A DNA stretch of 64,000 bases, taken from the NCBI RefSeq assembly GCF_036711975.1, contig NC_091975.1:9922501-9986500 (forward strand), given 5' to 3'. Positions 7,501-63,479 of this stretch are shown here, piece by piece (position 1 is the first letter of the stretch; every line of letters starts with the position of its first letter). The DNA comes from Onthophagus taurus (lineage: Eukaryota; Arthropoda; Insecta; Coleoptera; Scarabaeidae). The notes below the pieces were generated by a model. That model was not told the DNA's origin and did no database searches. It saw only the letters and a program-made list of their open reading frames with translations. The position numbers and the translations under genes are program-made.

Positions 7501-7729
7501 GTGTGTTCATTATATGAAAATAGACTTTTAGATCATTAATTTAAGTGTTCTACCTCTAATTGAGGTTATGTCAAATTTATGATGTGATAATTTATGATTA
7601 TCACTTAATATTTAAATAATAACCTTGAAAAAACAAAAATTATTTTCTTAAAACTTATCACATTTTAATCGAAAATAGATAACATTTTAAACACTTTGAC
7701 CTAACGACCTGTCCCATAACACCAAAAGA

Positions 7730-25000: not shown

Positions 25001-28000
25001 TATTTAAATGGTGCTTATAACATCGTTTGAAAGTCTAGGCTGTTTCTGATTCGATGATGGGAATAGTATTTTCTCATGTTTAAAATACGAATACGGGGAA
25101 AACCCTTTGCATGTGCATTTATTAGTACACCCAATTATTGTTCTTTACTTAGTTAGTTAGTTGTAGTCGTATTTCTTGTATAAGAACAATGAGTACAAGA
25201 ATTTAGCGAGTTTGGCTGACTCATCACTTAATCTTCGGGCCCTTCTATTGATGATGAAATAAACTCAAATGGTTCTACAACTCCTGCTACACCAACTTTG
25301 TAGTCTGAGTTTGATAATGAGTCGGATTGAGCAATAATGCCAAACCTATTGACTATTTCAGATGATATAATAATATGTGCCGCAGAAAATACGAGAAAAA
25401 AATCTAAGAAATGAAAAGATGTGACTCCACCTGAAATAACTAAATTCATTGGACTCTGTCTTTTATCTGGAACTATACACTTTCCTCGGTTGTCAAAGCA
25501 ATGGAGTACAAATTCCCTTTATTTTCAACCAGTTTTCGGAAAATCTCTGTCCAGGAATAGGTTTTGCGATATCCTGAGATTTTTGCGATTTATAAATCAT
25601 CGCGAGGGGGTACTAACGACCGTTTATATAAAATACGACCTATTTTAGAAAAAAATGAATACCTTGGCTAATTTCGAGCCCAGTCCCAACACCTCAATTC
25701 GAGCTGCCAAAGAAGATTTGGGAATCATACTACGAACTTTGTCGCGCTTTTCATGCATAAAAAATAAATTAAGAATTTCTTGATTTGTGTAAATATTACT
25801 TTCGTTATTGTTATCGATTTTAACTCTTTTCAGTACTAATATTAAGGGACCTAACAGATAATTATTAGCTCACATGCATCAAGTGACGTAAACAAGTGAG
25901 TCTTTGGCAACAACTCATTGAGAAGGCTTGTTTTTCATGGCACACTACGCTAAATATCCATATGATATGTGTGCATTTGGATGGATCTTAAATCCGTTTT
26001 TGAAATGCAACTATAAATGAGGCAAATTTACTAAGCTCAAAGAGAATCTGCTGGAATTATCTGACGATGGGATGTTACACTTGGAATTGAAGTCTGAAAA
26101 TTTGGATACCTTTTGGTTAAAAAGAAGAACAGAACCCCGTTGTTCTGTTGAATTGTTGGCCTAGTTACTAGGCCAACCACAGACCAACAATACAAATTCC
26201 AATATCTGGAGACAGTTCCTTCCACACAGAATGACAAATCCGCGATGAAGAGGTGTCGCCAGTGTAGCAGAGGTGGAGTTTACAAGAAATCCAAATACAA
26301 CTTCAGCTTTATAATCTGGCACAGTGCACAATAATTATGTTTTGTAAAACCTCAGTAATGGGTAATTGTTGATTTTCGAAAATTAACTTAATTATAACTC
26401 AAAAACTAAAAGCGATGGGGAAATATTTTTTATACATAAAACCTTAGTAATGGCCATAAAGACTAAATCCATAACAAGACTGAACCCAATTATTACCATT
26501 TTTTATTTATAAGCTCTAAATCCATTAAACATCAAAATTGTTGATTTTCGAAAATTAACTGAACCATAACTCAAAAACTAAAAGCGATGGGGAAATACTT
26601 TTTATACATAAAACCTTAGTAATGGGCCATAAAGACTAAATCCATAACAAGACTGAATCCAATTATTACCATTTTTTATTTATAAGCTCTAAATCGATTA
26701 AACATCAAAATTGTAGATTTTCGAAAATTAACTCAATCATAACTCAAAACTTAAAAGCGATGGGGAAATACTTTTTATACATAAAACCTTAGTAATGGGC
26801 CATAAAGACTAAATCCATATCAAGATTGAACCCAATTATTACCATTTTTTATTTATAAGCTCTAAATCGATTAAACATCAAAATTGTTGATTTTCGAAAA
26901 TTGAGTGAATCATAACTCAAAAACTAAAAGTGATGGGGAAATGCTTTTTATACATAAAACCTTAGTAATGGACCATAAAGACTAGATCCATAACAAGATT
27001 GAACCCAACTATTACCATTTTTTATTTATAAGCTCTAAATCGATTAAACATCAAAATTGTTGATTTTCGAAAATTAACTGAATCATAACTCAAAAACTAA
27101 AAGCGATGGGGAAATACTTTTTATAAATATAACCTTAGTAATGGGTCATAAAGACTAAATCCATAACAAGACTGAACCCAATTATTACCATTTTTTATTT
27201 ATAACCTCTAAATTGATTAAACATCAAAATTGTTGATTTTCGAAAATTAACTGAATCATAACTCAAAAACTAAAAGCGATGGGGAAATACTTTTTATACA
27301 TAAAACCTTAGTAATGGGCGATAAAGAGTAGATCCATAACAAGATTGAACCCAATTATTACCATTTTTTTATTTATAAGCTCTAAATCGATTAAACATCA
27401 AAATTGTTGATTTTCGAAAATTAATTGAATCATAACTCAAAAACTAAAAGCGGTGGGGAAATACTTTTTATACATAAAACCTTAGTAATGGGCCATAAAG
27501 ACTAAATCCATAACAAGACTGAACCCAATTATTACCATTTTTTATTTATAAGCTCTAAATCCATTAAACATCAAAATTGTTGATTTTCGGAAATTAATTG
27601 AATCATAACTCAAAAACTAAAAGCGATGGGGAAATACTTTTTATACATAAAACCTTAGTAATGGGCCATAAAGACTAAATCCATATCAAGATTGAACCCA
27701 ATTATTACCATTTTTTTATTTATAAGCTCTAAATCGATTAAACATCAAAATTGTTGATTTTCGAAAATTAACTCAAAAACTAAAAGCGATAGGGAAATAC
27801 TTTTTATACATAAAACCTTAGTAATGGGCCATAAAGACTAAATCCATATCAAGATTGAACCCAATTATTACCATTTTTTATTTATAAGCTCTAAATCGAT
27901 GAAACATCAAAATTGTTGATTTTCGAAAATTAACTGAACCATAACTCAAAAACTAAAAGCGATGGGGAAATACTTTTTATACATAAAACCTTAGTAATGG

Positions 28001-31084: not shown

Positions 31085-34000
31085 ATGCCGACTGTTGGTG
31101 TAAAAAGAGACTTATTATTCGATGCTTTAGGAAGAGTATACAGTAAGTTTTATTTGTATCAATAACATTAATTAATTAATTATTGATTTTAAGGTGACGA
31201 TGAGTTTCAAAAGTTATGTTTCGAATTTGGGCTTGAATTGGACGAAGTTGTAAGTAAGCAATAAAATTATTTATTTGTTTAAAGGAATGTAAATAATTTT
31301 TGCACTTTTACTGGTTTAATATATGTATTATTTTGAATAAGATAGATTCGAACAGATTCTAAAATTATACAGCCAAAATGCGCATGTATGTTGGAATTAA
31401 AATGTAAATGTTTAGAATTCTTAAATTTAAATTTACAAAATGTATACTATTATTTTTAAAACTCAGCCATTTCTTCATTAAACATAGACCCACATATCAA
31501 TCAATTCCATTCAAAGACAACTAATCTTTCCAATTTACACAACAAGAATTAAGTTTGCTTAATAAGGGACATAAATATGCACACACACCCATGTTCCTGA
31601 ACCTATCAAATTGGCCAGACATCCAGGACATGATAATGGGCCCACAGGAAGAAGACTCATTAAGAAAAGATTTTATAGAGATCCTCAAAAGAGAAGAGCG
31701 TAAAAAAGGACAATTATCCAATAACAACAATATTAAAAGAGTCAAAGAAGAGGAACAAATTATACATAAGATCAAAACAAAAATTAAAAATAACTCTTTA
31801 ATTATAACAAATGCAGATAAAAATGCAGGTTTAGTTATTTTAGAAAAGAAAAATTATATAGATAAAACTTTGCAATTTGTTGATGATAATAACTTCGTTG
31901 AAATAAAAAGAAACCCTACTCACAGTTTTCATACTAAAGTCAAAAAAGAATAATAAATTATCGAACTATTTCATTTCTTCCTATGAACCCAAAAGTGCCC
32001 CTAGTTTATTCCTTGATAAAACATATCATATGATATCATCTATTAATTCTAGTACATATAACATTTCTAAATTTATGATTAAATTTTTTTTTTTTGTCTA
32101 CTTTTGAACTCATTTTGAACCTAACAACTAATTATGTCATGTTGCTTACTTTCTTTGAATTCTAAATAATAATACGCATTTTGTAAATTTAAATTTAAGA
32201 ATTTTTGAACATTTACATTTTAATTCCAACATACATGCATTTTGGCTTTATAATTTTAGAATCTGTCGATACAAAAAATTGGTTTTTGATTTTTGTAACC
32301 TGTTCATACACTCAATGTCGTATAGCAGTGGTGTCCATAACGTCGATCGCAAAGCATTTTTGAGTCGATCGCCAAGAAAATCATGAATCTGAAATATCTA
32401 TATCTGGGCCTCAGAGCAAAAAATCGAAAATTCGAAAATTAACTCAATCATAACTCAAAAACTAAAAGCGATGGGGAAATACTTTTTATACATAAAACCT
32501 TAGTAATGGGCCATAAAGACTAAATCCATATCAAGATTGAACCCAATTATTACCATTTTTTATTTATACGCTCTAAATCGATTAAACATCAAAATTGTTG
32601 ATTTTCGAAAATTAATTGAATCATAACTCAAAAACTAAAAGCGGTGGGGAAATACTTTTTATACATAAAACCTTAGTAATGGATCATAAAGACTAGATCC
32701 ATAAAAAGATTGAACCCAATTATTACCATTTTTTATTTATAAGCTCTATTCGATTAAACATCAAAATTGTTGATTTTCGAAAATTAACTCAATCATAACT
32801 CAAAAACTAAAAGCGTTGGGGAAATACTTTGTATATATAAAACCTTAGTAATGGGTCATAAAAACAAGATCCATAAAAAAATTGAACATAATTGTTACCA
32901 TTTTTTATTTATAAGCTCTAAATCGATTAAACATCAAAATTGTTGAAAATTAACTCAATCATAACTCAAAAACTAAAAGCGATGGGGAAATACTTTTTAT
33001 AAGATCCATAAATAAATTGAACATAATTATTACCATTTTTTATTTATAAGCTGTAAATCGATTAAACATCAAAATTGTTGATTTTCGAAAATTAACTCAA
33101 TTATAACTCGAAAACTAAAAGCGATGGGGAAATACTTTTTATACATAAAACCTTAGTAATGGGCCATAAAGACTAAATCCATATCAAGATTGAACCCAAT
33201 TATTACCATTTTTTATTTATAAGCTCTAAATCGATTAAACATCAAAATTGTTGATTTTCGAAAATTAACTCAATTATAACTCGAAAACTAAAAGCGATGG
33301 GGAAATACTTTTTATACATAAAACCTTAGTAATGGGAGATAAAGACTGAATCCATAACAAGATTGAACCCAATTATTACCATTTTTTATTTATAAGCTCT
33401 AAATCAATTAAACATCAAAATTGTTGAAAATTAACTCAATCATAACTCAAAAACTAAAAGCGATGGGGAAATACTTTTTATAAGATCCATAAATAAATTG
33501 AACATAATTATTACCATTTTTTATTTATAAGCTGTAAATCGATTAAACATCAAAATTGTTGATTTTCGAAAATTAACTCAATTATACCTCGAAAACTAAA
33601 AGCGATGGGAAAATACTTTTTATACATAAAACCTTAGTAATGGGCCATAAAGACTAAATCCATATCAAGATTGAACCCAATTATTACCATTTTTTATTTA
33701 TAAGCTCTAAATTGATTAAACATCAAAATTGTAGATTTTCGAAAATTAACTCAATTATAACTCAAAAACTAAAAGCGATGGGGAAATACTTTTTATACAT
33801 AAAACCATAGTAATGGACCATAAAGACTAGATCCATAACAAGATTGAACCCAATTATTACCATTTTTTATTTATAAGCTGTAAATCGATTAAACATCAAA
33901 ATTGTTGGAAATTAACTCAATCATAACTCAAAAACTAAAAGCGATGGGGAAATACTTTTTATACATAAAACCTTAATAATGGGCCATAAAGACTAAATCC

Positions 34001-37000
34001 ATAAAAAGATTGAACCCAATTATTACCATGTTTTATTTATAAGCTCTAAATCGATTAAACATCAAAATTGTTGAAAATTAACTCAATCATAACTCAAAAA
34101 CTAAAAGCGATGGGGAAATACTTTTTATACATAAAACCTTAATAATGGGCCATAAAGACTAAATCCATATCAAGATTGAACCCAATTATTACCATTTTTT
34201 ATTTATAAGCTCTAAATCGATTAAACATCAAAATTGTTGAATATTATCTCAATCATAACTCAAAAACTAAAAGCGATGGGGAAATACTTTTTATACATAA
34301 AACCTTAGTGATGGACCATAAAGACTAGATCCATATCAAGATTGAACCCAATTATTACCATTTTTTATTTATAAGCTCTAAATCGATTAAACATCAAAAT
34401 TGTTGATTTTCGAATATTAACTCAATTATAACTCAAAAACTAAAAGCGATGGGGAAATACTTTTTATACATAAAACCATAGTAATGGACCATAAAGACTA
34501 GATCCATAAGAAGATTGAACCCAATTATTACCATTTTTTATTTATAAGCTCTAAACCGATTAAACATCAAAATTGTTGATTTTCGAAAATTAATTGAATC
34601 ATAACTCAAAAACTAAAAGCGATGGGGAAATACTTTTTATACATAAAACCTTAGTAATGAGCCATAAAGACTGAATCCATAACAAGATTGAACCCAAAAA
34701 AAAAGGAACACTGTTTAAGCGAAACATGTAAAACTAGAACTTATTATTCAAAATAATACATATATTAAACCAGTAAAAGTGCAAAAATTATTTACATTCT
34801 TTTAAACTACATTTCGATTACTGGTTAAAATGGATCACATCATCAATTTCGATTTTATTAACTTTAATTCTTTAGACAACAGAGAAGCAAATGATAACGA
34901 AAGAACAAGGTGAAGACAGTCAATTAACAGCGGACGCTTCCGAAGATGTTATTTATCGCATTGATATCCCAGCGAATCGATACGACTTGTTATGTTTGGA
35001 AGGATTAGTTCTTGGATTATTAGTTTTTCAAAAAAAAATGTCCCCTCCGATTTTTAAGGCTTTAAAACCACCAGAAGGTTCAATTCAACGATTAATAATC
35101 CAACCTAACACAGCTAAAATTCGTCCACATGCTGTAGCGGCTGTTTTACGAAACATGTATTTCACTCAAGACTCGTACAACAGTTTCATTGATTTGCAGG
35201 ATAAATTACATCAAAATATTTGTCGTAAACGCTCTTTAGTTGCGATCGGAACCCACGATTTAGACATGATCGAAGGTCCGTTTATTTACGATGCGAAACC
35301 TCCAAATGAAATCAAATTTATTCCTTTGAATCAAACTAAAGAATACACCGCCGTTGAATTAATGGATTTATACTCGACTCATGCCCAATTAAAACAATAT
35401 TTGCATATTATTAAAGATAAACCTTTATATCCAGTTATTACGGATAGTAAAGGTCGCGTTTTATCGATGCCTCCTATTATTAATGGGGACCATTCAAAAA
35501 TTAGTTTAAATACGAAAAATGTTTTCATTGAATGTACCGCTACCGATTTAACTAAAGTAAGTTAAGATGATAATAATAAAGTTAAAAAGTTATTGTTTTA
35601 TTTAAATTTAGGCTAAAATCGTATTGGATACTTTAGTCTGTATGTTTAGCCAATATTGTTCCGATAAATTCTGCGTTGAATATTGCGAGGTTGAGAAACC
35701 GGATGGAAATGTTTCGTTGTATCCAGAATTGGGGTATCGAGATGAAATTATCTCGGCTAAAACAGCAAATGGATTAGTTGGGATAAAGTAATATAATATA
35801 ATTTTTCTTAATTTAGTTTAAAATTATTTTTTTTTAGTGAAAATAGCTCAAAACTGGCTGATCTTCTCTCGAAAATGTGTTTATCATCGGAAGTTCTAAC
35901 CTCAAACGATGCAATTAAAGTTAGTATTCCACCAACACGACATGATGTGATCCATCCATGTGATATTTATGAAGATGTGGCGATTGCTTATGGGTATAAT
36001 AACATAAAACGAACCATTCCAGGGACGAGTACAATTGGGGAACAACTTTCGATCAATAAGTTATCAGATTTATTGAGATATCCGATAGCTGAGGCGGGAT
36101 TTACTGAAGCTTTAACCTTTTCTTTGGTAAATTTGAATTAAAAAGTAGTTTTTCTTCTACTCATCCTTATGTCTGATGGCCTCTTCTTCCACCCCCTCCA
36201 GTTCCTGGGTAATTCCTTTATATCTGCTAGAGTCTTCCCTCTCTTCTTCCCAACTATTCTTTCCTCCCATTTCTTCCTAGGTCTTATCCTTATTCTTTGC
36301 TTCAAATACTTTTTTTACTATTGTGTTATGTTCCATTCTAATTATGTAGTTAGTTACTTTCTCTCTATTTTGCTTGATCTACTTCTAGTCTTTACTTCCT
36401 CATTCTTTATCCTATCCCACTTCATCTTCCCCATTCTTGTTTATCTTATGATTCACTGACATATGTTAATATTGGGATTGCCACCAAGTTGTACACTTTC
36501 AATTTTATCTTCTCATCTATCCTTCCTCCCAAAAATTGTTCTGTTTAGAGTATGATATAGGTTGTTTGTTTTCCTTATTCTTGCATTTATGTCTAAATCT
36601 ATCCTTCCATCTTGTGATATTATACTGCCCAAGTACTCATATTTATTTATTTATTTTACTTCCGAAATTACAGGGTTGCCCCTAATTACAAATTTCAGAA
36701 CTTAAGTCTACTAGTACATAATATAATCAATAAAAACAAACAAAACAACTAAGATCGAAACTGTACCCATTTCTAATGACAAATCCTAAGAGACGCAAAG
36801 CTGTGGCTTTAATATGTTCAGCAAAGAACTGAAATCCCCAACATATCTGATACTGCGTTTTTATAAGAGACGTAATAAAATCTGTTGGACAAATATGAAA
36901 CAAAAAAACTAAGAGTAGAATAAGAAAACCCGTGTTGTACGAGCTTGTGCAGAAGCGTACCTTGATCCACCCTATCGAATGCTTTTTAAAAATCCGTGTA

Positions 37001-40000
37001 GATAACATCTACTTGAGCTCTAGCATCCAATGCTTTGGAAACATAAATCTGATTAACATTCAACGAAAGTTTTACTTGATTGAAAATCCTGCGATAAATC
37101 AATTGTTCGAAAACTTTGATGATTTTTCAAAAGATTTGCAAAAGCAGATGTGATATCTTTGCTAGAAGCAAGAGGAACTCCGTCGAAACAAAATTGGCTC
37201 TGGTTGAAATTTCAAATACTAAAAGCGACGGGGAAATACTTTTTATACATAAAACCTTAGTAATGGGCCATAAAGACTAAATCCATAACAAGATTGAACC
37301 TAATTATTACCATTTTTTATTTATTAGCTCTAAATCGAAAAATATCAAAATTGTTGATTTTCGAAAATTAATTGAATCATAACTCAAAAACTAAAAGCGA
37401 TGGGGAAATACTTTTTATACATAAAACCTTAGTAATGGGCCATAAAGACTAAATCCATATCAAGATTGAACCCAATTATTACCATTTTTTATTTATAAGC
37501 TCTAAATCGATTAAACATCAAAATTGTTGATTTTCGAAAATTAATTGAATCATAACTCAAAAACTAAAAGCGACGGGGAAATACTTTTTATACATAAAAC
37601 CTTAGTAATGGGAGATAAAGACTGAATCCATAACAAGATTGAACCCAATTATTACCATTTTTTATTTATAAGCTCTAAATCAATTAAACATCAAAATTGT
37701 TGAAAATTAACTCAATCATAACTCAAAAACTAAAAGCGATGGGGAAATACTTTTTATAAGATCCATAAATAAATTGAACATAATTATTACCATTTTTTAT
37801 TTATAAGCTGTAAATCGATTAAACATCAAAATTGTTGATTTTCGAAAATTAACTCAATTATAACTCGAAAACTAAAAGCGATGGGAAAATACTTTTTATA
37901 CATAAAACCTTAGTAATGGGCCATAAAGACTAAAGCCATATCAAGATTGAACCCAATTATTACCATTTTTTATTTATAAGCTCTAAATCGATTAAAATCA
38001 AAATTGTTGATTTTCGAAAATTAACTCAATTATAACTCGAAAACTAAAAGCGATGGGGAAATACTTTTTATACATAAAACCTTAGTAATGGGCCATAAAG
38101 ACTAAATCCATATCAAGATTGAACCCAATTATTACCATTTTTTATTTATAAGCTCTAAATCGATTAAACATCAAAATTGTTGATTTTCGAAAATTAACTC
38201 AATTATAACTCGAAAACTAAAAGCGATGGGGAAATACTTTTTATACATAAAACCTTAGTAATGGGCCATAAAGACTAAATCCATATCAAGATTGAACCCA
38301 ATTATTACCATTTTTTATTTATAAGCTCTAAATCGATTAAACATCAAAATTGTTGATTTTCGAAAATTAACTCAATTATAACTCGAAAACTAAAAGCGAT
38401 GGGGAAATACTTTTTATACATAAAACCTTAGTAATGGGAGATAAAGACTGAATCCATAACAAGATTGAACCCAATTATTACCATTTTTTATTTATAAGCT
38501 CTAAATCAATTAAACATCAAAATTGTTGAAAATTAACTCAATCATAACTCAAAAACTAAAAGCGATGGGGAAATACTTTTTATAAGATCCATAAATAAAT
38601 TGAACATAATTATTACCATTTTTTATTTATAAGCTGTAAATCGATTAAACATCAAAATTGTAGATTTTCGAAAATTAACTCAATTAAACTCAAAATTTAA
38701 AAGCGATGGGGAAATACTTTTTATACATAAAACCTTAGTAATGGGCCATAAAGACTAAATCCATAACAAGATTGAACTCAATTATTACCATTTTTTATTT
38801 ATAAGCTCTAAATCGATTAAACATCAAAATTGTTGATTTTCGAAAATTAATTGAATCATAACTCAAAAACTAAAAGCGACGGGGAAATACTTTTTATACA
38901 TGAAACCTTAGTAATGGGCCATAAAGACTAAATCCATATCAAGATTGAACCCAATTATTACCATTTTTTATTTATAAGCTCTAAATCGATTAAACATCAA
39001 AATTGTTGATTTTCGAAAATTAACTCAATTATAACTCGAAAACTAAAAGCGATGGGGAAATACTTTTTATACATAAAACCTTAGTAATGGGCCATAAAGA
39101 CTGAATCCATAACAAGATTGAACCCAATTATTACCATTTTTTATTTATAAGCTCTAAACCGATTAAACATCAAAATTGTTGATTTTCGAAAATTAACTCA
39201 ATCATAACTCAAAAACTAAAAGCGATGGGGAAATACTTTTTATACATAAAACCTTAGTAATGGGCCATAAAGACTGAATCCATAAGAAGATTGAACCCAA
39301 TTATTACCATTTTTTATTTATATGCTCTAAATCGATTAAACATCAAAATTGTTGATTTTCGAAAATTAACTCAATTATAACTCGAAAACTAAAAGCGATG
39401 GGGAAATACTTTTTATACATAAAACCTTAGTAATGGACCACAAAGACTAAATCCATATCAAGATTGAACCCAATTATTACCATTTTTTATTTATAAGCTC
39501 TAAATCGATTAAACATCAAAATTGTTGATTTTCGAAAATTAACTCAATTATAACTCGAAAACTAAAAGCGATGGGAAAATACTTTTTATACATAAAACCT
39601 TAGTAATGGGCCATAAAGACTAAAGCCATATCAAGATTGAACCCAATTATTACCATTTTTTATTTATAAGCTCTAAATCGATTAAACATCAAAATTGTTG
39701 ATTTTCGAAAATTAACTCAAAAACTAAAAGAGATGGGGAAATACTTGTTATACATAAAACCTTAGTAATGGGCCATAAAGACTAAATCTATATCAAGATT
39801 GAACCCAATTATTACCATTTTTTATTTATAAGCTCTAAATTGATTAAACATCAAAATTGTAGATTTTCGAAAATTAACTCAATCATAACTCAAAAACTAA
39901 AAGCGATGGGGAAATACTTTTTATACATAAAACCTTAGTAATGGACCATAAAGACTAAATCCATATCAAGATTGAACTCAATTATTACCATTTTTTATTT

Positions 40001-41979
40001 ATAAGCTCTAAATCGATTAAACATCAAAATTGTTGAAAATTAACTCAATCATAACTCAAAACCTAAAAGCGATGGGGAAATACTTTTCGTACATAAAACC
40101 TTAGTAATGGACCATAAAGACTAAATCCATATCAAGATTGAACCCAATTATTACCATTTTTTATTTATAAGCTCTAAATCGATTAAACATCAAAATTGTT
40201 GATTTTCGAAAATTAACTCAATTATAACTCGAAAACTAAAAGCGATGGGAAAATACTTTTTATACATAAAACCTTAGTAATGGGCCATAAAGACTAAAGC
40301 CATATCAAGATTGAACCCAATTATTACCATTTTTTATTTATAAGCTCTAAATCTATTAAACATCAAAACTGTTGATTTTCGAAAATTAACTCAATTATAA
40401 CTCGAAAACTAAAAGCGATGGGGAAATACTTTTTATACATAAAACCTTAGTAATGGGCCATAAAGACTGAATCCATAACAAGATTGAACCCAATTATTAC
40501 CATTTTTTATTTATGAGTTCTAAATTGATTAAACATCCAAGTTGTAGATCTTCGAAAATTAACTCGATAATCAAATAATCAGTGGTTGTTTCCATTTAAA
40601 AAAACGAAAATTGTCATAATATCTAAAAATCTAAAACCGAAAAAATTTTTTTGACTACGTCATCAGATTCTCTGTAAAAAAGTGTCCATATAATGTCTTA
40701 GTTATAATACTCCACCTATAATAATAACCAAGATCTCCGGATCTATCTTGTCTTTGCTGCAAGCCTTGTCATCATTGCCTCTCCTAATTCTTCCATTGTT
40801 ATCTCTTCTCTAGCTATGTCTGTAGTGTCTTCCCTTATCTTCTCTTCCCTCCTCCATTGTTTGTGTCTGTTTTCCACCCTTGAACTTTTCTGCATAAAAA
40901 TGCTCCCATATGTCCAGAATTTCCCTTGGTATTCGATCTGTATGTTTCATTTCTAACTTTTCTTAGCTACATCTCAGTCCGTTCTATAGTTTGCTCTATC
41001 CTCTTCCGAATTCGTTCTTATGTGTTTCTTCCATAACTCTTTCTTCTCCATTCTACCAGTGAGTTCTCTTTGTCTCATTATTATTTTTCTCATTCCACAC
41101 ACCTCCATAGCTTTATTTCTCTGGTAAATTCTCCGTTTGTTCTAGTTTTTGAAATTCGTTGTTTGTTTTTTCTTGGTATTTTAGTCTTTCTTCCTCCTGC
41201 CTTAGTTTATGGATGTTTATTTTCGTTTATTTTATTTTCCAATCAATAAATCGTTTATTTGACAAAATTCCAGCATTCTTCCCCCATTTCTATTCATCGC
41301 TTATTATACAAATTAAAAAGTACAACTAACCAATAATTTAAATAAATAGTGTTCAAGGGATGATATTTCGAGCAAATTAGGCAAAGCAATCGAAGAAATT
41401 CCTGCTGTACATATTTCGAACCCAAAAACTTTGGAGTTTCAAGTTTGTCGCACGACTTTGCTGCCGGGGATTTTAAAAACGATAGCGGCCAATAAGAAAA
41501 TGCCGCTTCCGATTAAAATTTTTGAGATCTCCGATGTTGTTTTAAAAGATATTAATACAGGTAAACATCATTTACTCGTCATAAACACTTTATTAAAACT
41601 TTTAAATCATTTTAGAAGTAGGGGCTAGAAACGAGCGTAGAATTTGTGCGGTAAATTGCAATAAAACCGCTGGTTTTGAGGTTGTTCACGGATTATTGGA
41701 TAGAATTATGCTTTTATTGGAAGTACCATGGAATCCAAAGAAAGAAAAAACCGGCTATTATTTAAAAGCGATTGAAGGTCAAACAAAAAGACTAAATTAA
41801 CTTAAAAATAACTTCATTTAATTTTAGATCCAGCCTATTTCCCACAAAGATGCGCCGAAATCGTTTGCAATGGAAAGCCAATTGGAAAAATCGGTGTTTT
41901 ACACCCGAATGTTCTCGCAAAGTTTGAATTAACCATTCCTTGCTCTGCACTCGAAATAACCATCGAACCTTTCGTTTAA
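31085..41979 (+). CDS. FARSB: Phenylalanine-tRNA ligase beta subunit, complete eight-exon gene
   Basis: Exons are 31085-31142, 31194-31249, 34876-35556, 35612-35787, 35838-36126, 41350-41560, 41616-41777 and 41828-41979: 1,785 nt, 594 aa, against 589 in human. The protein pairs with the alpha subunit to charge tRNA-Phe in the cytosol. The start [17 protein letters not shown] matches the family. The B3/4 region in exon 3 has [11 protein letters not shown] and [16 protein letters not shown]. The B5 DNA-binding-like fold in exon 5 has [17 protein letters not shown]. The catalytic-fold-like C-terminal part has [17 protein letters not shown] and [20 protein letters not shown]. The intron-7 donor is GAAG/GTCAAA, which is weak. 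Introns 2 and 5 are 3.6 and 5.2 kb owing to repeats; the others are 49-55 bp. Confidence 0.96.
31341..32285 (+). mobile_element. Penelope-like retroelement fragment with inner inverted repeats
   Basis: A 132-codon frame at about 31555-31953 has [12 protein letters not shown] and [20 protein letters not shown], the N-terminal RT region of Penelope-like elements (family recollection). The protein ends early and no catalytic YxDD is present. It is bracketed by ~105-bp inverted repeats at 31341-31445 and 32170-32280 that share CATGTATGTTGGAATTAAAA. From 32286 to 32430 a short stretch with GCAGTGGTGTCC resembles a hAT terminus. Confidence 0.65.
32431..34696 (+). repeat. ~173-bp satellite array 2 (FARSB intron 2)
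   Basis: Same monomer and orientation as the array at 26345-29384. This array also includes shortened monomers (about 130 bp) in which the middle part is replaced by TTATAAGATCCATAAATAAA (33000, 33480). Other monomers lack TTTTCG after GTTGA. The array stops at GATTGAACCCAA next to an A-run at 34697. Confidence 0.95.
36150..36690 (-). pseudogene. LINE reverse-transcriptase C-terminal fragment
   Basis: On the minus strand from about 36640 the frame reads [20 protein letters not shown], then [16 protein letters not shown], the post-catalytic thumb region of LINE reverse transcriptases. Stops and frameshifts follow to about 36150. The plus-strand 96-codon hydrophobic ORF here is its antisense shadow. 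It lies in FARSB intron 5. Confidence 0.75.
36691..37205 (-). pseudogene. Second LINE reverse-transcriptase fragment (Jockey/CR1-like)
   Basis: On the minus strand, from 37200 downwards, decayed sequence includes [35 protein letters not shown] and [15 protein letters not shown], the central RT palm region of Jockey/CR1-type elements. One stop sits in the TDF-KAFD motif. It directly abuts satellite array 3. Confidence 0.75.
37213..40568 (+). repeat. ~173-bp satellite array 3 (FARSB intron 5)
   Basis: About 19-20 monomers share the same landmark and orientation as the other two arrays. Full-length monomers alternate with the short ATAAGATCCATAAATAAA type at about 37757 and 38580. A block that runs from GGGAGATAAAGACTG through the short monomer occurs at 37609 and 38438 and also in array 2 at 33334, so there is a higher-order unit. 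No flanking direct repeats were found. Confidence 0.96.
40740..41230 (-). pseudogene. LINE linker/RT-start fragment
   Basis: Minus-strand frames, broken by several stops, read [14 protein letters not shown], then [15 protein letters not shown], and further on [18 protein letters not shown], resembling the basic linker and the first RT block of LINEs. It could be the 5' part of the element whose RT C-terminus is at 36150-36690, with the satellite array between them. The bases 40569-40739 hold no clear feature. Confidence 0.55.
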
Positions 41980-43057: not shown

Positions 43058-46000
43058 GTGTTTCGTTAAATACCGTTGATAGTGTAGACGGTTTTGTCGC
43101 CGATATCAATAACGGCCATTGGGATACCGTTTTAAAAGCGATCCAATCGTTAAAATTACCCGATAAGAAGTTAATTGATTTATATGAACAAATCGTTTTG
43201 GAACTTATTGAGTTACGAGAGTTAGGTGCCGCTCGATCTTTGTTAAGACAAACGGATCCCATGATTATGTTGAAACAAAATGAACCGGAACGATATATTC
43301 ATTTAGGTTTTAATTAATATTTGGGAAAAATTTAAGAATCATCATGGGGCTTAAAAATCGCCCATTAATTTTATTTAATGACTCAAAAAATACATTAAAA
43401 GTTAAAAAAAAGTGTAGAAATTTGTTTTGTATATGTATTTTTTTTTTTAATTTATTCATATTTGTTGTAGCTATTATTTTTATACAGGGTGTATCTAAAT
43501 TGATGTGAAAGATTCAACTTCCCTTCTCCTCCAAGTTATAGCCCTCTAAAGTTAAGGGAAAAAATTTGCAACTTTCTTATCTTTTGACATTTTACAACTA
43601 ACAAATTGTTAGTTTGATCACAAAAAATAAAATAATGGTAAGATCAATTTGATATAACTTCATTTCTTTGACTAATAATAACCAATCTCTAAATTAATTA
43701 ACTTGAACCTATGTATTATTTTATTTTTTTGTGAGCAAACTAACAATTTTAGGAGAAAATGTCAAGAGAGAAAAAAGTTGCGTATTGAATCCCTCTATTT
43801 AAATCAAGTTTTTAAATAGAAAAACGTAGACGCATTAAAAAGTTCTGATGTAAAGTATTATAGGGGTTGATTTTTTCAGCCCCTTGAAATAACATTTTAT
43901 TGTTACAAAAATCGTCAAAACGTGTCACCTTATTAGTAATAGTTATCTGCCAAATTTTATCCTTCCAAATTCCTCCATAATGGATTTATTAAAGAAAAAC
44001 AATTTTCCCCCCTAATTTTAGAGGGCTGTAACTTGGAGGAGAAGTGGTTTTAACCAAAAAGTTATACAGTGTGTCCCCGGATAGGTGAAACGACTCTTAT
44101 AAAACGTAAAATTTTTTTGTTTCGATATTAATTGTCATTTTTTGGGGTTTGGCCCTGCTTGATTAAAGACTAATTTTAAACATATTTTCAAGTTTTAAAA
44201 AACAAGTGAGCTTGGACGGTGAAAGAAAAACTCTTTTTGTGGCAGGTAAACTACCTTTTCTGTTTACAGTACGTGAAAGTATTACTAAGAAGTTTTGTTC
44301 AGAATGAAGAATTATGGCCATATGCAAATTTTCGGAATGATCGGCCTACTTTGGTAAAAATCTCATTACCTGACACACAAGGAGTTTTCGCTTCAGTGTC
44401 AACACTCACTTGTTTTTAAAACTTGAAAATATGTTCAAAATTAGTCTTTCACCAAGCAGGGCTAAACCCCAAAAAATGACAATTAATATCGAAAAAAATT
44501 TACATTTTATAAGAGTCGTTTCACCTATCCGGGGACACACTGTATATATTAAAATCTTTCACATCAATTTAGATACCGTATTTTCTCGAATCTAATCCGC
44601 ACCCTTTTTACAAATTTTGTATGCTCTAAAATCAAATGCGGATTACAATCGGATGTGGATTACATTGGAAAACCAACTTTTTTTACCATCATTGCATTTT
44701 TAAAATCGGGGTGCGGATTAGATTCGAGTGCGGATAAGATTCGAGAAAATACGGTACATTCTGTATATGTATAGGCCCAAATAAATATTGTTCTCTCTCT
44801 CTCTCTCATATTAAAGTTGATTGACGTCACGTTTTGTGACGTCACAAGCAATGTTAATCATGCATTTTTCTATTAAACTTAAAAGTAAAGTTATTTTTAC
44901 TAAACTAGGTGAGATTACAACGTATATTTTCGAATAAAACATCTTTGTTTTTCTTAGGCTTCCGATGCATAATAACTGACTACTAGGTCTTATGGTAGCT
45001 AAATAACATTTAAAACAAGAACTAACACTAGACCCAGAACTAGAAACATTCGGATTTAGCCGCACGTCTCTTAAGACGGCTAAACCCGAATGATTCTAGT
45101 TCCAGGTTTTCTGTTAGTTCTAGTGATAGTGCAAAACTAGAACTAACACTAGACCTAGAACTAGAAACATTCGGATTTAGCCGCACGTCTCTCAAGACGG
45201 CTAAACCCGAATGATTCTAGTTCTAGATCTTGTGTTAGTGCTAGTGTGAACTAGAAATATTTGGGTTTAGGTCTAGTGTTAGTTCTAGTTTTAGTGCAAT
45301 ATAAATATGCAACATAGTGACACCTTATGCTTATCCAAATGTCTCTGTTTTTAGGTTTAGTGTTAGTTCTACTTTTTTTTCAATAAAATTATACCACAAT
45401 CTAACGCTACACAACATTTAAAACTAGAACTAACACAAGAACTAGAATCATTCGGGTTTAGCGGTCTTGACAGACGTGCGGCTAAACACGAATGTTTCTA
45501 GTTCTAGGTCTAGTGTTAGTGCAAAACTAGAACTAACACTAGATCGTAAACTAGAAACATTCGGATTTAGCCGCACGTCTTTCAAGACGGCTAAACCCGA
45601 ATGATTCTAGTTCTAGGTCTTGTGTTAGGTTCTAGTGATAGTGTTAGTGCAAAACTAGAACTAACACTGGACCTAGAAACATTCGGATTTAGCCGCACGT
45701 CTCTCAAGACGGCTAAACCCGAATGATTCTAGTTCCAGGTCTTGTGTTAGGTTCTAGTGATAGTATTAGTGTGAAACTAAAACTAACACTAGATCTAGAA
45801 ACATTCGGATTTAGCCGCACGTCTTTCAAGACGGCTAAACCCGAATGATTCTAGTACTAGGTCTTGTGTTAGTGCTAGTGTGAACTAGAAATATTCGGGT
45901 TTAGGTCTAGTGTTAGTTCTAGTTTTAGTGCAATAAAAATATGCAACATAGTGACATCTTATGCTTATCCAAATGTCTCTGTTTTTAGGTTTAGTGTTAG

Positions 46001-49000
46001 TTCTACTTTTTTTTCAATAAAATTATACCACAATCTAACGCTACACAACATTTAAAACTAGAACTAACACAAGACCTAGAACTAGAATCATTCGGGTTTA
46101 GCCGTCTTGACAGACGTGCGGCTAAACACGAATGTTTCTAGTTCCTGGTTTTGTGTTAGTTCTAGTGGTAGTGTTAGTGCAAAACTAGAACTAACACTAG
46201 ACCTAGAAACATTCGGATTTAGCCGCACGTCTCTCAAGACGGCTAAACCCGAATGATTCTAGTTCTAGGTCTTGGGTTAGGTTCTAGTGATAGTGTTAGT
46301 GCAAAACTAGAACTAACACTAGACCTGGAAACATTCGGATTTAGCCGCACGTCTCTCAAGACTACTAAACCCGAATGATTCTAGTTCTAGGTCTTGTGTT
46401 AGTTCTAGTTTTGCACTATCACTAGAACTAACACAAGACTTAGAACTAGAATAATTCGGGTTTAGCCACACGTCTCTCAAGGCTGCTAAACCCGAATGAT
46501 TCTAGTTCTAGGTCTTGTGTTAGGTTCTAGTGATAGTATTAGTGCAAAACTAGAACTAACACTAGACCTAGAAACATTCGGATTTAGCCGCACGTCTTTC
46601 AAGACGGCTAAACCCGAATGATTCTAGGTCTTGTGTTAGTTCTAGTGATAGTGTTAGTGCAAAACTAGAACTAACACTAGACCGTAAACTAGAAACATTC
46701 GGATTTAGCCGCACGTCTCTCAAAACTGCTAAACCCGAATGATTCTAGTTCTAGGTCTTGTGTTAGTGCTAGTGTGAACTAGAAATATTCGGGTTTAGGT
46801 CTAGTGTTAGTTCTAGTTTTAGTGCAATAAAAATATGCAACATAGTGACATCTTATGCTTATCCAAATGTCTCTGTTTTTAGGTTTAGTGTTAGTTCTAC
46901 TTTTCTTTCAATAAAATTATACCACAATCTAACGCTACACAACATTTAAAACTAGAACTAACACAAGACCTAGAACTAGAATCATTCGGGTTTAGCCGTC
47001 TTGACAGACGTGCGGCTAAACACGAATGTTTCTAGTTCTAGGTCTTGTGTTAGGTTCTAGTGATAGTATTAGTGCAAAACTAGAACTAACACTAGACCTA
47101 GAAACATTCGGATTTAGCCGCACGTCTTTCAAGACGGCTAAACCCGAATGATTCTAGTTCCAGGTCTTGTGTTAGTTCTTGTGGTAGTGTTAGTGCAAAA
47201 CTAGAACTAACACTAGACCTAGAAACATTCGGATTTAGCCGCACGTCTTTCAAGACGGCTAAACCCGAATGATTCTAGTTCTAGGTCTTGTGTTAGTTCT
47301 AGTTTTGCACTATCATTAGAACTAACACAAGACTTAGAACTAGAATCATTCGGGATTAGCCACACGTCTCTCAAGACTGCTAAACCCGAATGATTCTAGT
47401 TCTAGGTCTTGTGTTAGGTTCTAGTGATAGTATTAGTGCAAAACTAGAACTAACACTAGACCTAGAAACATTCGGATTTAGCCGCACGTCTTTCAAGACG
47501 GCTAAACCCGAATGATTCTAGGTCTTGTGTTAGTTCTAGTGATAGTGTTAGTGCAAAACTAGAACTAACACTAGACCGTAAACTAGAAACATTCGGATTT
47601 AGCCGCACGTCTCTCAAGACGGCTAAACCCGAATGATTCTAGTTCTAGGTCTTGTGTTAGTGCTAGTGTGAAGTAGAAATATTCGGGTTTAAGTCTAGTG
47701 TTAGTTCTAGTTTTAGTGCAATAAAAATATGCAACATAGTGACATCTTATGCTTATCCAAATGTCTCTGTTTCTAGGTCTAGTGTTAGTTCTACTTTTTT
47801 TTCAATAAAATTATACCACAATCTAACACTACACAACATTTAAAATTAGAACTAACACAAGAACTAGAATCATTCGAATTTAGCCGTTTTGACAGACGTG
47901 CGGCTAAACACGAATGTTTCTAGTTCTAGGTCTAGTGCTAGTTCTAGTGATAGTACTAGTGTAAAACTAGAACTACACTAGAACTAGAAAGTATTGGGTC
48001 TTCAACCCAACCCGGAATTTACAACCCACCTTCTGCTCCATGCCCAACCCGACATTTTTGAAATTTGTACTAGTTTAAATGTTAATTAACCTAAATCAAA
48101 GTGGAATTTCCACACAAAATGCTGAAATAAATCAATAAATTAGGTGGATTTTTAAGCGACATGATGATTCTTGAATTATGTATACCAAAATTTGATTTTT
48201 TTTTTTAATTTTAAGAAAATTTATTGGCTCGATCTTATTTTGATCCCCGAGAAGCTTACCCGGACGGTAGTAGCAAAGAAAAACGTCGCGCGGCAATATC
48301 CCACGCGTTAAGCGGAGAAGTTTCCGTTGTTCCATCATCTCGTCTTTTAGCTTTGTTAGGACAAGCGTTGAAATGGCAACAACAACAAGGATTGTTACCC
48401 CCCGGAACAACGATTGATTTATTCCGAGGAAAAGCAGCGATAAAAGACCAAGAAGATGAACAATTCCCGACCCAAATGGCCAAACAAATTAAGTTTGGTC
48501 AAAAATCGCATGTTGAATGCGCTCGATTTTCCCCAGATGGGCAATATTTAATCACCGGAAGTGTTGATGGTATCATTGAAGTTTGGAATTTTACGACGGG
48601 AAAGATTCGAAAAGATTTAAAGTACCAAGCGCAAGAAAGTTTTATGATGATGGAGCACGCCGTGCTTTGCATGGCTTTTTCGAGAGACTCGGAAATGTTA
48701 GTAACGGGATCTCAAGCTGGAAAAATTAAAGTCTGGCGGATCACCACCGGGCAATGTTTGAGAAAAATCGAAAAAGCCCACATGAAAGGAATTACTTGTT
48801 TACAATTCTCTAGGGATAACAGCCAGGTTTTAAGCGCGGGGTTTGACCAAATGATTAGAATTCACGGTTTAAAATCGGGGAAGATGTTGAAGGAGTTTAG
48901 GGGGCACACTTCGTTTGTTAATGAAGTGATTTTTACTCAAGATGGACATAACATTTTAAGCGCTTCTTCCGATGGGACCGTTAAAGTTTGGAGCATAAAA

Positions 49001-56000: not shown

Positions 56001-59000
56001 CTGCTGACAGAGGGCCGGTCCGTGCACGAGACGTCCGAAGAAGGCGAGAGTCTCCTATCCCTGGCTTGTAGCGCCGGCTATTACGAACTCGCACAGGTAC
56101 CAACCAACATTATTTAAAACAAATTAAACTAAAAAATGCAATTTCTTAGCCATAAAAAAATTTCTTGGTTCATAAAACGTTGAGATTAGATGATAACTAA
56201 CTTGATTGTGTACTTTTTACGCGAAGCAGGTGTTATTAGCGATGCACGCCAACGTGGAAGATAGAGGCATCAAAGGGGAATGTACCCCTTTGATGGAAGC
56301 AGCGTCCGCGGGACATTTGGACATTGTACGTCTTTTGGTAGTCCATGGAGCTGATGTAAATGCCCAATCAACGTCAGGTAAATTAATAAATCACCCCCAA
56401 ATCGCGTTTTATTACAACTAATTTTTAATAATCAAGGAAATACGCCTTTAATGTATGGATGCGCCGGTGGGCATCAAGACGTCGTAAAATTTCTCTTAGA
56501 AAACGGGGCGAACGTCGAAGACCACAACGAAAACGGTCACACACCCCTCATGGAAGCGGCATCCGCGGGTCATGTCGGTTTAGCTAAGATCCTCTTAGAA
56601 CACGGGGCCGGCATAAACACCCACTCAAATGAATTTAAAGAATCCGCGTTAACGCTGGCTTGCTATAAAGGCCACCTAGATATGGTTAAATTTTTGTTGG
56701 AGGCGGGGGCGGATCAAGAACACAAAACGGATGAGATGCACACCGCTTTAATGGAGGCCTCGATGGACGGTCACGTTGAAGTCGCCAGGCTCCTTTTGGA
56801 CTCTGGCGCGCAAGTTAATATGCCCACCGATAGTTTCGAATCTCCGCTTACGTTGGCCGCGTGTGGGGGGCACGTCGATCTTGCGTTGTTGCTTATTGAG
56901 AGGGGCGCTAATATCGAGGAGGTTAACGATGAGGGATATACCCCGCTAATGGAAGCGGCTCGCGAGGGTCATGAAGAAATGGTGTCTTTATTGCTCAGTC
57001 AAGGTAAAAAATTAAATTGATTTAGTTCAAAATCCATTTTGTTCTCTTTGTACTTATTAACATTTTTACAGTTTTCAATTTTAATTTATTTCTGTCCAAC
57101 TTTATTTTATTGTGAAAAATGTTCATCACTTTAATTTTTCGACATTGCTTCTGAGGATGACTTTAACTGAGGCTTCTGAGGCTGGATATTAAAAACCTAT
57201 TACTTAGTATTCCACCATTCACATGAATTAGTATCTCTTTTAGATGTTGGACACTGCAGATAATAATTAAATTCAACCCTAACAGGACTTTTTTTATTGA
57301 ATACAACTTTATTTATATCAGGTTTGTCATTTGCAACTTCATTGTAACAACTTTCAAAATTCGCTATAAAATTAATTTCTTGAAGGATCCTTCTGGAAAT
57401 GTCACCAATTATTAATTATAGTATCCTCCTTTTAATACAAAAAGCCGTTTTGAAAAATCACCTTTAGTTCTTGAGAAATAAATTTTTTAAATCGAATTTT
57501 GCTATTTCCGCTGATTAAGTTTTAATAATTCGTATAAAATCGATTTCTTGGAATATGAGTATGAAAATTTCTCAAAGTGTTAATAAAAGTGTCCTCTTTT
57601 CAATGAACCAACCCATTTTGAAAAATAACTTTTAGTTTTTGAGAAAACAATATTTGAAGTTTTGATAAAATTTTCGATGTAATCGATAATTTTCAAAATT
57701 CGCTATAAAATTAATTTCTTGAAGGATTCTTCTGGAAATATCACCAATTATTAATTATAGTATCCTCTTTTTAATGCAACAAGCCGTTTTGAAAAATCAT
57801 TTTTAGTTCTTGAGAAATAAATTTTTGAAATAATCGACAATTTTTCGAATTTTGCAATTTCCGCCGATTAAACTTTAATAATTCGTATAAAATCGATTTC
57901 TTGGAATATGAGTATGAAAATTTCTCAAAGTGTTAATAAAAGTGTCCTCTTTCCAATGAACCAACCCATTTTGGAAAATAACTTTTTGTTTTTGAGAAAA
58001 CAATATTTGAAGTTTTGATAAAATTTTCGATGTAATCGATAATTTTCAAAATTCGCTATAAAATTAATTTCTTGAAGGATCCTTCTGGAAATATCACCAA
58101 TTATTAATTAAAGTATCCTCTTTTTAATACAAAAAGCCGTTTTGAAAAATCACTTTTAGTTCTTGAGAAATAAATTTTTGAAATAATCGACAATTTTTCG
58201 AATTTTGCAATTTCCGCCGATTAAGTTTTAATAATTCGTATAAAATCGATTTCTTGGAATATGAGTATGAAAATTTCTCAAAGTGTTAATAAAAGTGTCC
58301 TCTTTCCAATGAACCAACCCATTTTGGAAAATAACTTTTTGTTTTTGAGAAAACAATATTTGAAGTTTTGATAAAATTTTCGATGTAATCGATAATTTTC
58401 AAAATTCGCTATAAAATTAATTTCTTGAAGGATTCTTCTGGAAATATCACCAATTATTAATTATAGTATCCTCTTTTTAATGCAACAAGCCGTTTTGAAA
58501 AATCATTTTTAGTTCTTGAGAAATAAATTTTTGAAATAATCGACAATTTTTCGAATTTTGCAATTTCCGCCGATTAAACTTTAATAATTCGTATAAAATC
58601 GATTTCTTGGAATATGAGTATGAAAATTTCTCAAAGTGTTAATAAAAGTGTCCTCTTTCCAATGAACCAACCCATTTTGGAAAATAACTTTTTGTTTTTG
58701 AGAAAACAATATTTGAAGTTTTGATAAAATTTTCGATGTAATCGATAATTTTCAAAATTCGCTATAAAATTAATTTCTTGAAGGATCCTTCTGGAAATAT
58801 CACCAATTATTAATTAAAGTATCCTCTTTTTAATACAAAAAGCCGTTTTGAAAAATCACTTTTAGTTCTTGAGAAATAAATTTTTGAAATAATCGACAAT
58901 TTTTCGAATTTTGCAATTTCCGCCGATTAAGTTTTAATAATTCGTATAAAATCGATTTCTTGGAATATGAGTATGAAAATTTCTCAAAGTGTTAATAAAA

Positions 59001-62000
59001 GTGTCCTCTTTCCAATGAACCAACCCATTTTGGAAAATAACTTTTTGTTTTTGAGAAAACAATATTTGAAGTTTTGATAAAATTTTCGATGTAATCGATA
59101 ATTTTCAAAATTCGCTATAAAATTAATTTCTTGAAGGATCCTTCTGGAAATATCACCAATTATTAATTAAAGTATCCTCTTTTTAATACAAAAAGCCGTT
59201 TTGAAAAATCACTTTTAGTTCTTGAGAAATAAATTTTTGAAATAATCGACAATTTTTCGAATTTTGCAATTTCCGCCGATTAAGTTTTAATAATTCGTAT
59301 AAAATCGATTTCTTGGAATATGAGTATGAAAATTTCTCAAAGTGTTAATAAAAGTGTCCTCTTTCCAATGAACCAACCCATTTTGAAAAATAACTTTTAG
59401 TTTTTGAGAAAACAATATTTGAAATTTTGATAAAATTTTCGATGTAATCGATAATTTTCAAAATTCGCTATAAAATTAATTTCTTGAAGGCTCCTTCTGG
59501 AAATATCACCAATTATTAATTAAAGTATCCTCTTTTTAATACAAAAAGCCGTTTTGAAAAATCACCTTTAGTTCTTGAGAAATAAATTTTTGAAATAATC
59601 GACAATTTTACGAATTTAGCAATTTCCGCCGATTAAGTTTTAAAAATTCGTATAAAATCGATTGCTTGAAATATGAGTATGAAAATTTCTCAAAGTGTTA
59701 ATAAGAGTGTCCTCTTTCCAATAAACCAACCCATTTTGAAAAATAACTTTTAGTTTTTGAGAAAACAATATTTGAAGTTTTGATAAAATTTTCGATGTTG
59801 CAATTTTCATCGATAACTTTCAAAATTCGCTATAAAATTAATTTCTTGAAAGATCCTTCTGGAAATATCACCAATTATTAATTAAAGTATTCTCTTTTTA
59901 ATGCAAAAAGCCGTTTTGAAAAATCACTTTTAGTTCTTGAGAAATAAATTTTTGAAATAATCAACAATTTTTTCGAACTTTGCAATTTTCGCCGATTAAG
60001 TTTTATTAATTCGTATAAAATCGATTTCTTGGAATATGAGTATGAAAATTTCTCAAAGTGTTAATAAAAGTGTCCTCTTTCCAATGAACCAACCCATTTT
60101 GAAAAATAACTTTTGGTTTTTGAGAAAACAATATTTGAAGTTTTGATCAAATTTTCGATGTTTCAATTTTCATCGATAATTTTCAAAATTCGCTATAAAA
60201 TTAATTTCTTGAAGGATCCTTGTGGAAATATTACCAATTATTAATTAAAGTATCCTCTTTTTAATGCAAAAAGCCGTTTTGAAAAATCACCTTTAGTTCT
60301 TGAGAAATAAATTTTTGAAATAATCGACAATTTTTCCAATTTTGCAATTTCCGCCGATTAAATTTTAATAATTCGTATAAAATCGATTTCTTGGAATATG
60401 AGTATGCAAATTTCCCAAAGTGTTAATAAAAGTGTCCTCTTTCCAATGAACCAACCCGTTTTAAAAAATAACTTTTAATTTTTGAGAAAACAATATTTGA
60501 AGTTTTGATGTTGTAATTTTTTGAAGGGGATGCTGAATATCCGGTATCCGGCTATAATAACCAATATAAGTACAAAGAAAACATCTTTATTTTATTTTTA
60601 TTGTTAAAAAATTAAAAATTTTATTAATTTATTATTTTTGTTGTATCTTAGGAGCAAATATAAACGCCCAAACTGATGAGACCCAAGAAACAGCTTTAAC
60701 ATTAGCATGTTGCGGAGGTTTCACCGAAGTAGCGGATTTCCTCTTAAAAGCAGGGGCAGATATCGATTTAGGCGCCTCAACCCCCCTTATGGAAGCAGCG
60801 CAAGAAGGCCACTTAGAATTAGTGAAATACCTACTTGAGAATAACGCAACCGTTCACGCCCAAACACAAACGGGCGATACGGCTTTGAGTTACGCTTGTG
60901 AGAATGGACACACGGACGTAGCAGATTTGCTGTTACAATACGGGGCCGACCTTGAGCACGAATCGGAAGGAGGAAGAACGCCTTTGATGAAAGCTTGCAG
61001 GGCCGGCCATCTTTGTACCGTGCAGTTTTTGATATCAAAAGGGGCCGATGTGAGAAGGCAGACGTCTAATAATGATCACACGCCGCTTTCGTTGGCTTGC
61101 GCCGGCGGGCATTTAAGCGTTGTCGAATTGTTGTTGACGCATCGAGCCGACCCTAATCACAAGCTCAAAGATAACTCGACCATGCTAATCGAAGCCGCTA
61201 AAGGAGGTCATACAGCCGTCGTCCAATTACTCCTAGATTATCCCCATTCGATGAACTCAATGATGCTGAATCAACAAGGCGCTGCGGCTGCCGCGGCCGC
61301 CACCAATTTATCGATATTACCCGGACAAGTTCGCGATTCGCCGCTTTCATCTACTTCATCCCAACCAGAAATTGATTTCTTTCAACCAACACCCAATATC
61401 TTTGGATCCACTGGTAATAATTAGTTTAGTTGTATTAGTTTCGATTTCGAAGAGTTAATTTGATTTCGAAATTAGTTTTACAAGAAGTTCCTGAAGCAGT
61501 GAGGATCATAACCCAAGAAGAGGCTTCCACATCAGTCCAAGACATGACCAAACTGGTGCACGGCGCTGATTCTTCGGGACGTCTCGCGGACATCCAACAC
61601 CAACATCACCACCAACAGGCGTTCGACGGTAGTTTAACGTCTGCGGAAGCCCAACAAGTTCGAACGCAACCTGTGCCTGTTGCGGAACTTGAAGATCACG
61701 ACGTGTTCGCCACGTCAGCGACCGTTCATTTCCTCTCCAGCGAAACGGAACGATTAAAAGATGATGAAATCGACGAAGGGGGCGATCAGAAAAAGCAACA
61801 GATTTTAGAGGAATTACACGTATGTTATATTTTAATGAAATTATTTGATGTTTATGGGAATAATTTTTTTTAGCAGGTAGATAGAGAGTTCCTTGGGAAG
61901 CAGCAGACGCACAATCACCTGCTGTTGTCGCAGTATGCTGTTCCTCCAGAGCAGTGTCAACAAACTGCTAACACCTCACTGCCACACACTCTCAATATTG

Positions 62001-63116: not shown

Positions 63117-63479
63117 TACATTTGCTGTTAAAGAGAAAAAATTTCTTAAAATGATAGAAATTTTATAAAATATAATTAAAAACTTAATTGTTTATGAAGT
63201 TGGTAAACTAAAAACGTTATTGAATATATTGCGCTTTTTACGTCGAGCGTATGTGGACAACCTGGTGTGCGATTCGTTTTGACGCATGCGAACATATTCG
63301 TCACACCCATAATCTTTATTTTTAAAATCGTCATGCCCAGTGCGTAAAAAATGAATTACAATTTCTGCTTATTAGGTTTATTTCATTATTAAAACAACAT
63401 AATAACTATCACTAGAACAACACTAGACCTAGAAACTTTCGAGTTAAGTCGTGCGTCTTTGCACTAATATCGTCATTCC

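Follow-up and report, generated by a model that had tools for sequence, protein, structure and literature searches.

Why should an intron of a splicing-factor gene hold some 3 kb of densely packed, hairpin-forming repeats? The question arises from a stretch of 64,000 nucleotides of the scarabaeid beetle Onthophagus taurus (RefSeq assembly GCF_036711975.1, contig NC_091975.1, positions 9,922,501 to 9,986,500 of the forward strand; hereafter the window, with coordinates counted from its first base), in which an array of palindromic units lies within an intron of the gene SMU1. The reading that we favor, at a probability of about 0.83, is that the array forms the inside of E1, a nonautonomous DNA transposon of the cut-and-paste kind whose insertion brought it into this intron, and that the same cassette is also carried by the families E2 and E3 and, provisionally, E4.

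Array in the SMU1 intron

The host gene was confirmed as SMU1, as an earlier sequence-only reading of the window had proposed, by the match of the window to solved SMU1 chains (E = 2.5e-174). The intron spans 43307 to 48215 on the plus strand (4909 bp; splice sites and frame read from the sequence). A gap-free scan for the stem motif located 19 foldback units at 45011 to 47986 (plus strand), and a profile search found the same 19. Fifteen units are in forward orientation (F), with cores matching 40 to 44 of the 44 motif positions, and four are inverted (R), with cores at 45450, 46090, 46984, and 47872 that match 38 to 41 of 44. According to the profile search, units are spaced by 105 to 123 bp or by 285 to 286 bp. 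They are ordered FF-L-R, FFF-L-R, FFFFF-L-R, FFFFF-L-R, that is, as four (F)n-L-R blocks with n = 2, 3, 5, and 5, the last two of which lie 894 bp apart. L denotes a linker segment present in four plus-strand copies, at 45295 to 45436 (with linkA from 45295 and linkB from 45397), 45929 to 46070, 46823 to 46964, and 47717 to 47858. The higher-order pattern of about 19 foldbacks in 3 kb that the sequence-only reading had described was therefore recovered by both searches, and its "four longer segments" are the linker copies, each followed by an inverted unit. The start that it gave, 44990, falls about 20 bp outside the array; the transposon reaches well further left.

E1 and its insertion

E1 is a nonautonomous element of 4863 bp with inverted ends (43324 to 48186) whose interior is formed by the array. 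Its left terminal inverted repeat (TIR; 43324 to 43372, plus strand) begins GGAAAAATTTAAGAATCATC and is answered on the minus strand by a right TIR at 48134 to 48186 (match at 48134 to 48177, outer end read from the sequence). Directly outside lie the two copies of an 8-bp target-site duplication, AATATTTG at 43316 to 43323 and AAAATTTG at 48187 to 48194, which agree at 7 of 8 positions. The same 7/8 match was seen in two further E1 copies (L054 and L050); no length from 2 to 12 bp other than 8 is conspicuous, and random pairs of 8-mers from the window agree at 7/8 or better with a frequency of 0.0009.

Between the ends and the array lie two internal flanks on the plus strand, LF (44874 to 44990) and RF (48004 to 48150), both dispersed repeats. 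The query for LF (44820 to 45010) had at least 62 genome matches, with the best 40 of 171 first-look candidates scored, and that for RF (47975 to 48300) had at least 44, with the best 40 of 286 scored. Elsewhere in the genome, LF and RF are paired in other E1 copies around arrays of very different length: copies with these same flanks hold no unit (L041), one unit (L040), or 24 units (L047). The window copy of E1 is swollen by other, nested inverted-repeat elements in its left part (43487 to 44756), where several inverted-repeat pairs were found (43491-43514/44553-44576, 44063-44117/44492-44546, and 44574-44602/44728-44756). One of these nested elements, at 44063 to 44546, begins TATACAGTGTGTCCCC.

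Of the 4909 bp of the intron, 4863 belong to E1; without it and one copy of the duplication, 38 bp would be left. An intron of about 38 bp is very short for an animal. The case illustrates how a tiny intron in a splicing-factor gene can be enlarged by a transposon to 4.9 kb of strongly foldable sequence. The SMU1 intron hosts the array because the transposon carrying it inserted there, and the idea that such an array is special to a splicing-factor intron found no support, since the array is a dispersed repeat that a transposon brought in. In SMU1 the array is a passenger, which looks like selfish DNA and no part of the splicing gene.

Genomic distribution of the unit

A genome-wide search, such as the sequence-only reading had called for with the stem motif, established the unit as a dispersed repeat. 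With 401 bases of the array as the query, there were at least 417 matches in the 290.8-Mb assembly, a lower bound because the best 40 of 3572 first-look candidates were scored. All 20 loci fetched by similarity to the unit hold it, in stretches ranging from fragments to about 2.8 kb, and the longest array among the loci read is about 3 kb. A 201-base query had no match in phage records. Within the window, three degenerate single units had been reported outside the array. One was confirmed at 23648 to 23722 (plus strand, preceded by linkB at 23625), and a second was located by the profile search at 63400 to 63460 (plus strand). The third, near 10240, fell below the profile threshold; a remnant of the unit can be read there by eye at about 10220 to 10258. 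At one further locus (L008), an apparent inverted-repeat element at about 1871 to 2127, with AAGGTTTATAGAACATAAGGTTACC ends as judged by eye, splits a unit of the array.

The same cassette in several transposon families

The same unit and linker lie inside at least two families with different ends, E2 and the mariner-like E3, and probably inside a third, E4. The remnant near 10240 belongs to a window copy of E2 (9062 to 10305) with a 28-nt TIR that is 93% complementary, and arrays adjoin the E2 ends at three loci (L012, L023, and L027). E3 ends carry CAGTGATACAATAA after TA; arrays lie between them at L010 and L021, and TIRs with TA on both sides were found at L010, L021, and L031. E3 thus has the TA target and CAGTG-type ends of Tc1/mariner elements, although in the fetched copies the TA before the end is partly a result of selection, TA having been the start of the E3 query. 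CAGTG-type ends are typical of Tc1/mariner. L031 is a hybrid in which E3 ends surround arrays together with E1 right-flank sequence. The hybrid, at positions 237 to 2041 of this locus, lies about 4 kb upstream of the window, and its E1 right flank is 96% identical to that of the window. E4 comprises five loci (L011, L017, L018, L026, and L029) with two recurrent flanks and is provisional, not a proven element; for one of these flanks the best 40 of 795 first-look candidates were scored. The linkA segment was present at 11 of 24 E1, 3 of 3 E2, 2 of 2 E3, and 2 of 5 E4 loci (the duplicate locus L037 left out).

So that the unit played no part in the selection, the junction between transposon and array was compared in copies fetched by their flank only, 10 of 40 listed for E3 and 10 of 40 listed for E2. 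In E3 it is the same in 10/10 copies, the profile match starting at position 44 to 49 in nine and at 57 in one, which has a small deletion. In E2 the unit begins at positions 29 to 32 in 8/10 copies; of the exceptions, L075 has only a scrambled stub at the junction and L078 is cut off there. Since junctions are fixed in these copies, the array was inside each family before they spread. The family-specific junction point, taken with the common linker, suggests that one cassette was acquired separately by each family.

Two other accounts of the dispersal meet these junctions. The (F)n-L-R cassette might itself be a foldback transposon of the FB/Galileo/Tetris type, with tandem-repeat arms as its ends, that inserted into E1 to E4. 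Such an origin is suggested by the arrangement of F and R units as inverted repeats around a linker, by the variable copy number, and by the presence of the linker in all four families. However, in the two families tested the cassette edge is at different points of the unit (about position 45 in E3, about position 30 in E2) but does not vary inside either family, unlike the edges of a transposon with fixed ends; moreover, LF and RF intervene between the array and the ends of E1, and the array does not lie in the terminal inverted repeats. We consider this origin unlikely. Alternatively, a classical satellite could have seeded short arrays across many loci (from extrachromosomal circles, for instance), with transposons landing in or near them later. 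This would fit the short dispersed arrays, the likeness of interior units across contexts, and the 9 of 20 unit-fetched loci without an assigned element (L013 to L016, L019, L020, L024, L025, and L028), some of which hold end fragments and at one of which (L024) a further array adjoins an E2 end. Fixed junctions in 10/10 E3 and 8/10 E2 copies, in contrast, require an array already inside the element before transposition, and none of the loci read had an array longer than about 3 kb, so that independent seeding appears distinctly improbable.

Under the transposon reading that we favor, each family would have captured the cassette once, and transposases acting on each family's own ends would have spread it. 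The number of units would then shift by unequal exchange or replication slippage, possibly helped by the foldback, and the likeness of interior units from one family to another may be maintained by exchange or by a recent spread out of one shared source. How short satellite arrays scatter through a genome is debated, and family-specific junctions separate the capture of an array, apparently once per family, from its carriage by the family's own ends.

Likeness of units within and between families

The occurrence of one unit in several families allows exchange between families to be measured. Units covering at least 100 profile positions were compared (339 of 415), and 113 unlabelled units were left out of the family comparisons. 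Overlapping loci (L001 to L005, L007, L030, L036, and L037, the last of which overlaps L047) and the COX1 locus L009 were dropped; a check for shared 150-mers among all loci revealed no overlap beyond these. Averaged over whole units, identity was 0.882 to 0.904 between families and 0.870 to 0.927 within them. For interior units (loci with at least six units, the first and last two units of each removed), it was 0.896 to 0.919 between families and 0.893 to 0.936 within, so that interior units of different families resemble one another about as closely as those of a single family, whereas junction units are family-specific. The latter (9 of 13 from E2, with L072, L074, L075, and L078 excluded because they were incomplete or rearranged, and 12 from E3) had an identity of 0.809 between E2 and E3, compared with 0.847 within E2 and 0.895 within E3. 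The nearest unit at another locus belonged to the same family for 37 of 102 E1, 1 of 40 E2, and 8 of 66 E4 units. From these values we infer, but do not regard as proven, an exchange of units across families.

Several points weigh against the favored reading. E3 units do group by family (nearest unit in the same family for 14 of 18), as those of the other families mostly do not. The likeness of interior units was favored by sampling, because the array loci of E2, E3, and E4 had been selected for matching the window best; among E1 interior units, 25 of 57 came from loci picked by their flanks (L044, L047, and L053) and the rest from the window and L022. The nine family-less loci noted above count here as well. 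One of the four two-ended E1 copies, L051, matches at 0/8 positions where the duplication is expected, the insertion duplication of E2 is not established, and E4 has neither a demonstrated duplication nor matching ends. Of the relatives with the same ends that the sequence-only reading had hoped for, nonautonomous ones exist, but no autonomous partner of E1 was found: E1 ends were present at 0/4 Merlin-type transposase loci examined among 38 genome matches, in stretches of 1.9 to 2.3 kb beyond which more distant ends would be missed. A Merlin element as the partner of E1 found no support at these four loci. Merlin-type (IS1595) transposase matches as such occur at 38 places in the genome, several with open frames over 300 aa.

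A further reading would make the palindromic cassette a parasite of transposons, that is, a short foldback satellite that passes between unrelated families and is kept alike across them. Passage would proceed by hairpin-driven template switching or ectopic exchange, with several transposases used in turn and none encoded. We offer this proposal tentatively and think it doubtful.

Predicted folding and RNA function

The unit is about 116 nt long, and its consensus forms a stem of 49 pairs (minus strand), with a predicted folding energy of -72.6 kcal/mol for one strand and -77.6 kcal/mol for the other. One unit of the array folded at -48.7 kcal/mol on the plus strand (z = -7.4) and -52.7 kcal/mol on the minus strand (z = -8.1), and a second at -45.6 kcal/mol on the plus strand (z = -8.1); 0/200 shuffles were as good for either unit. 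As a control, two flanking segments of the SMU1 intron had z scores of -0.09 and 0.07. Because the unit folds strongly and the intron flanks do not, the hairpins seen in the sequence-only reading are real and were, if anything, understated: the structure is not a 15-bp stem with extended arms but a 116-nt consensus unit paired over 49 positions.

So stable a fold could indicate a conserved structured RNA, or a locus of hairpin-derived small interfering RNAs, that acts in SMU1 splicing or regulation. Besides the z scores of about -7 to -8, this would be in line with the pairing across the 339 units, in which Watson-Crick cells (13808 of 16026) slightly exceed the shuffles (mean, 13765; maximum, 13803 in 500 shuffles). 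This small excess may, however, stem from the relatedness of the units. Stem changes were one-sided in 1540 cases versus two-sided in 101, of which 41 restore a Watson-Crick pair, and mutations that are mostly uncompensated argue against a conserved RNA structure. In addition, the repeat is genome-wide, and Rfam at the gathering threshold had no match within the window. A role in SMU1 as a structured RNA is therefore very improbable. The array is without sign of a conserved RNA function; its hairpin simply follows from the palindromic nature of the unit, and it may make rearrangement easier.

Other repeats and a COX1-like segment

Tandem repeats of other kinds occur elsewhere in the window. 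A 294-bp unit is present in six copies at 5732 to 7502 (96% matches), a similar 173-bp unit recurs in three separate arrays (26364 to 29384, 32431 to 34697, and 37212 to 40565), and an array at 57352 to 60509 admits two readings, one with 353-bp units (96% matches) and one with a diverged 182-bp repeat (69% matches). The COX1 locus dropped from the unit comparison, L009, contains at 1501 to 2841 (C1:21446788-21448128) a full-length COX1-like match with 11 TGA codons in a 44-Mb contig, which is either a mitochondrial insertion or a misjoin.

Comparison with known systems

The sequence-only reading had found no family to match the array. By sequence, no known family was found here either: none of six motif strings had a match in the open-licence papers searched, nor, as stated, did Rfam in the window. 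That nonautonomous DNA transposons can carry satellite arrays inside them is a well-described general mechanism, although the family itself is unnamed in the literature searched. Examples are miDNA4 (PMC9659126, PMC12628747), Tetris (PMC4079207), and Cg_HINE (PMC7492417). Among the listed open-licence papers that were consulted, we found no report of a palindromic cassette common to several TIR families.

The closest parallels differ in instructive ways. miDNA4 of Xenopus tropicalis is described as a Tc1/mariner miniature inverted-repeat transposable element that holds one to many copies of a satellite internally, and for which capture of a preexisting repeat has been proposed (PMC9659126, PMC12628747). 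The present elements resemble it as nonautonomous TIR elements with an internal array, E3 having TA-flanked mariner-like ends, and they have inverted ends (E1, E3, and the window copy of E2), a target-site duplication (E1 and E3), and an array that varies in unit number between copies (E1). Unlike in miDNA4, one unit here occurs in several families with unrelated ends and is a 49-pair foldback, and the E1 duplication is 8 bp rather than TA. Tetris of Drosophila virilis, a foldback transposon with TIR-220 repeats of about 220 bp in its terminal inverted repeats and duplications of 8 to 10 bp (PMC4079207), is likewise a DNA element with internal tandem repeats and rearranged modules, and its duplications include the length seen in E1; here, in contrast, the repeats lie in the interior of the element, and every unit is palindromic. 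TCsat23 of Tribolium castaneum, compared by description only, is also a satellite borne by a DNA transposon in an insect, but its short arrays sit in the terminal repeats of a single element, Rehavkus-1_TC (PMC10218199).

In Crassostrea gigas, the Cg_HINE elements are Helentrons with satellite-like central repeats, no duplications, and a preference for oligo-T, and in the published account each cluster of repeats is confined to a single pair of flanks (PMC7492417). The LF-array-RF architecture and the short dispersed arrays are similar, whereas here one repeat has several pairs of flanks, and, unlike in Helentrons, an 8-bp duplication is present in three of four two-ended E1 copies. In mollusc satellite/transposon networks, where the elements are Helitrons, junctions were reported as nonrandom in only one satellite (PMC5139131). 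The notion of a joint propagation of transposons and short satellite arrays applies here too, but junctions were fixed in both TIR families tested. Taken together, the place of the array in the SMU1 intron has an ordinary reason; what is mildly unusual, at the scale of the genome, is that several transposon families carry one palindromic satellite cassette.

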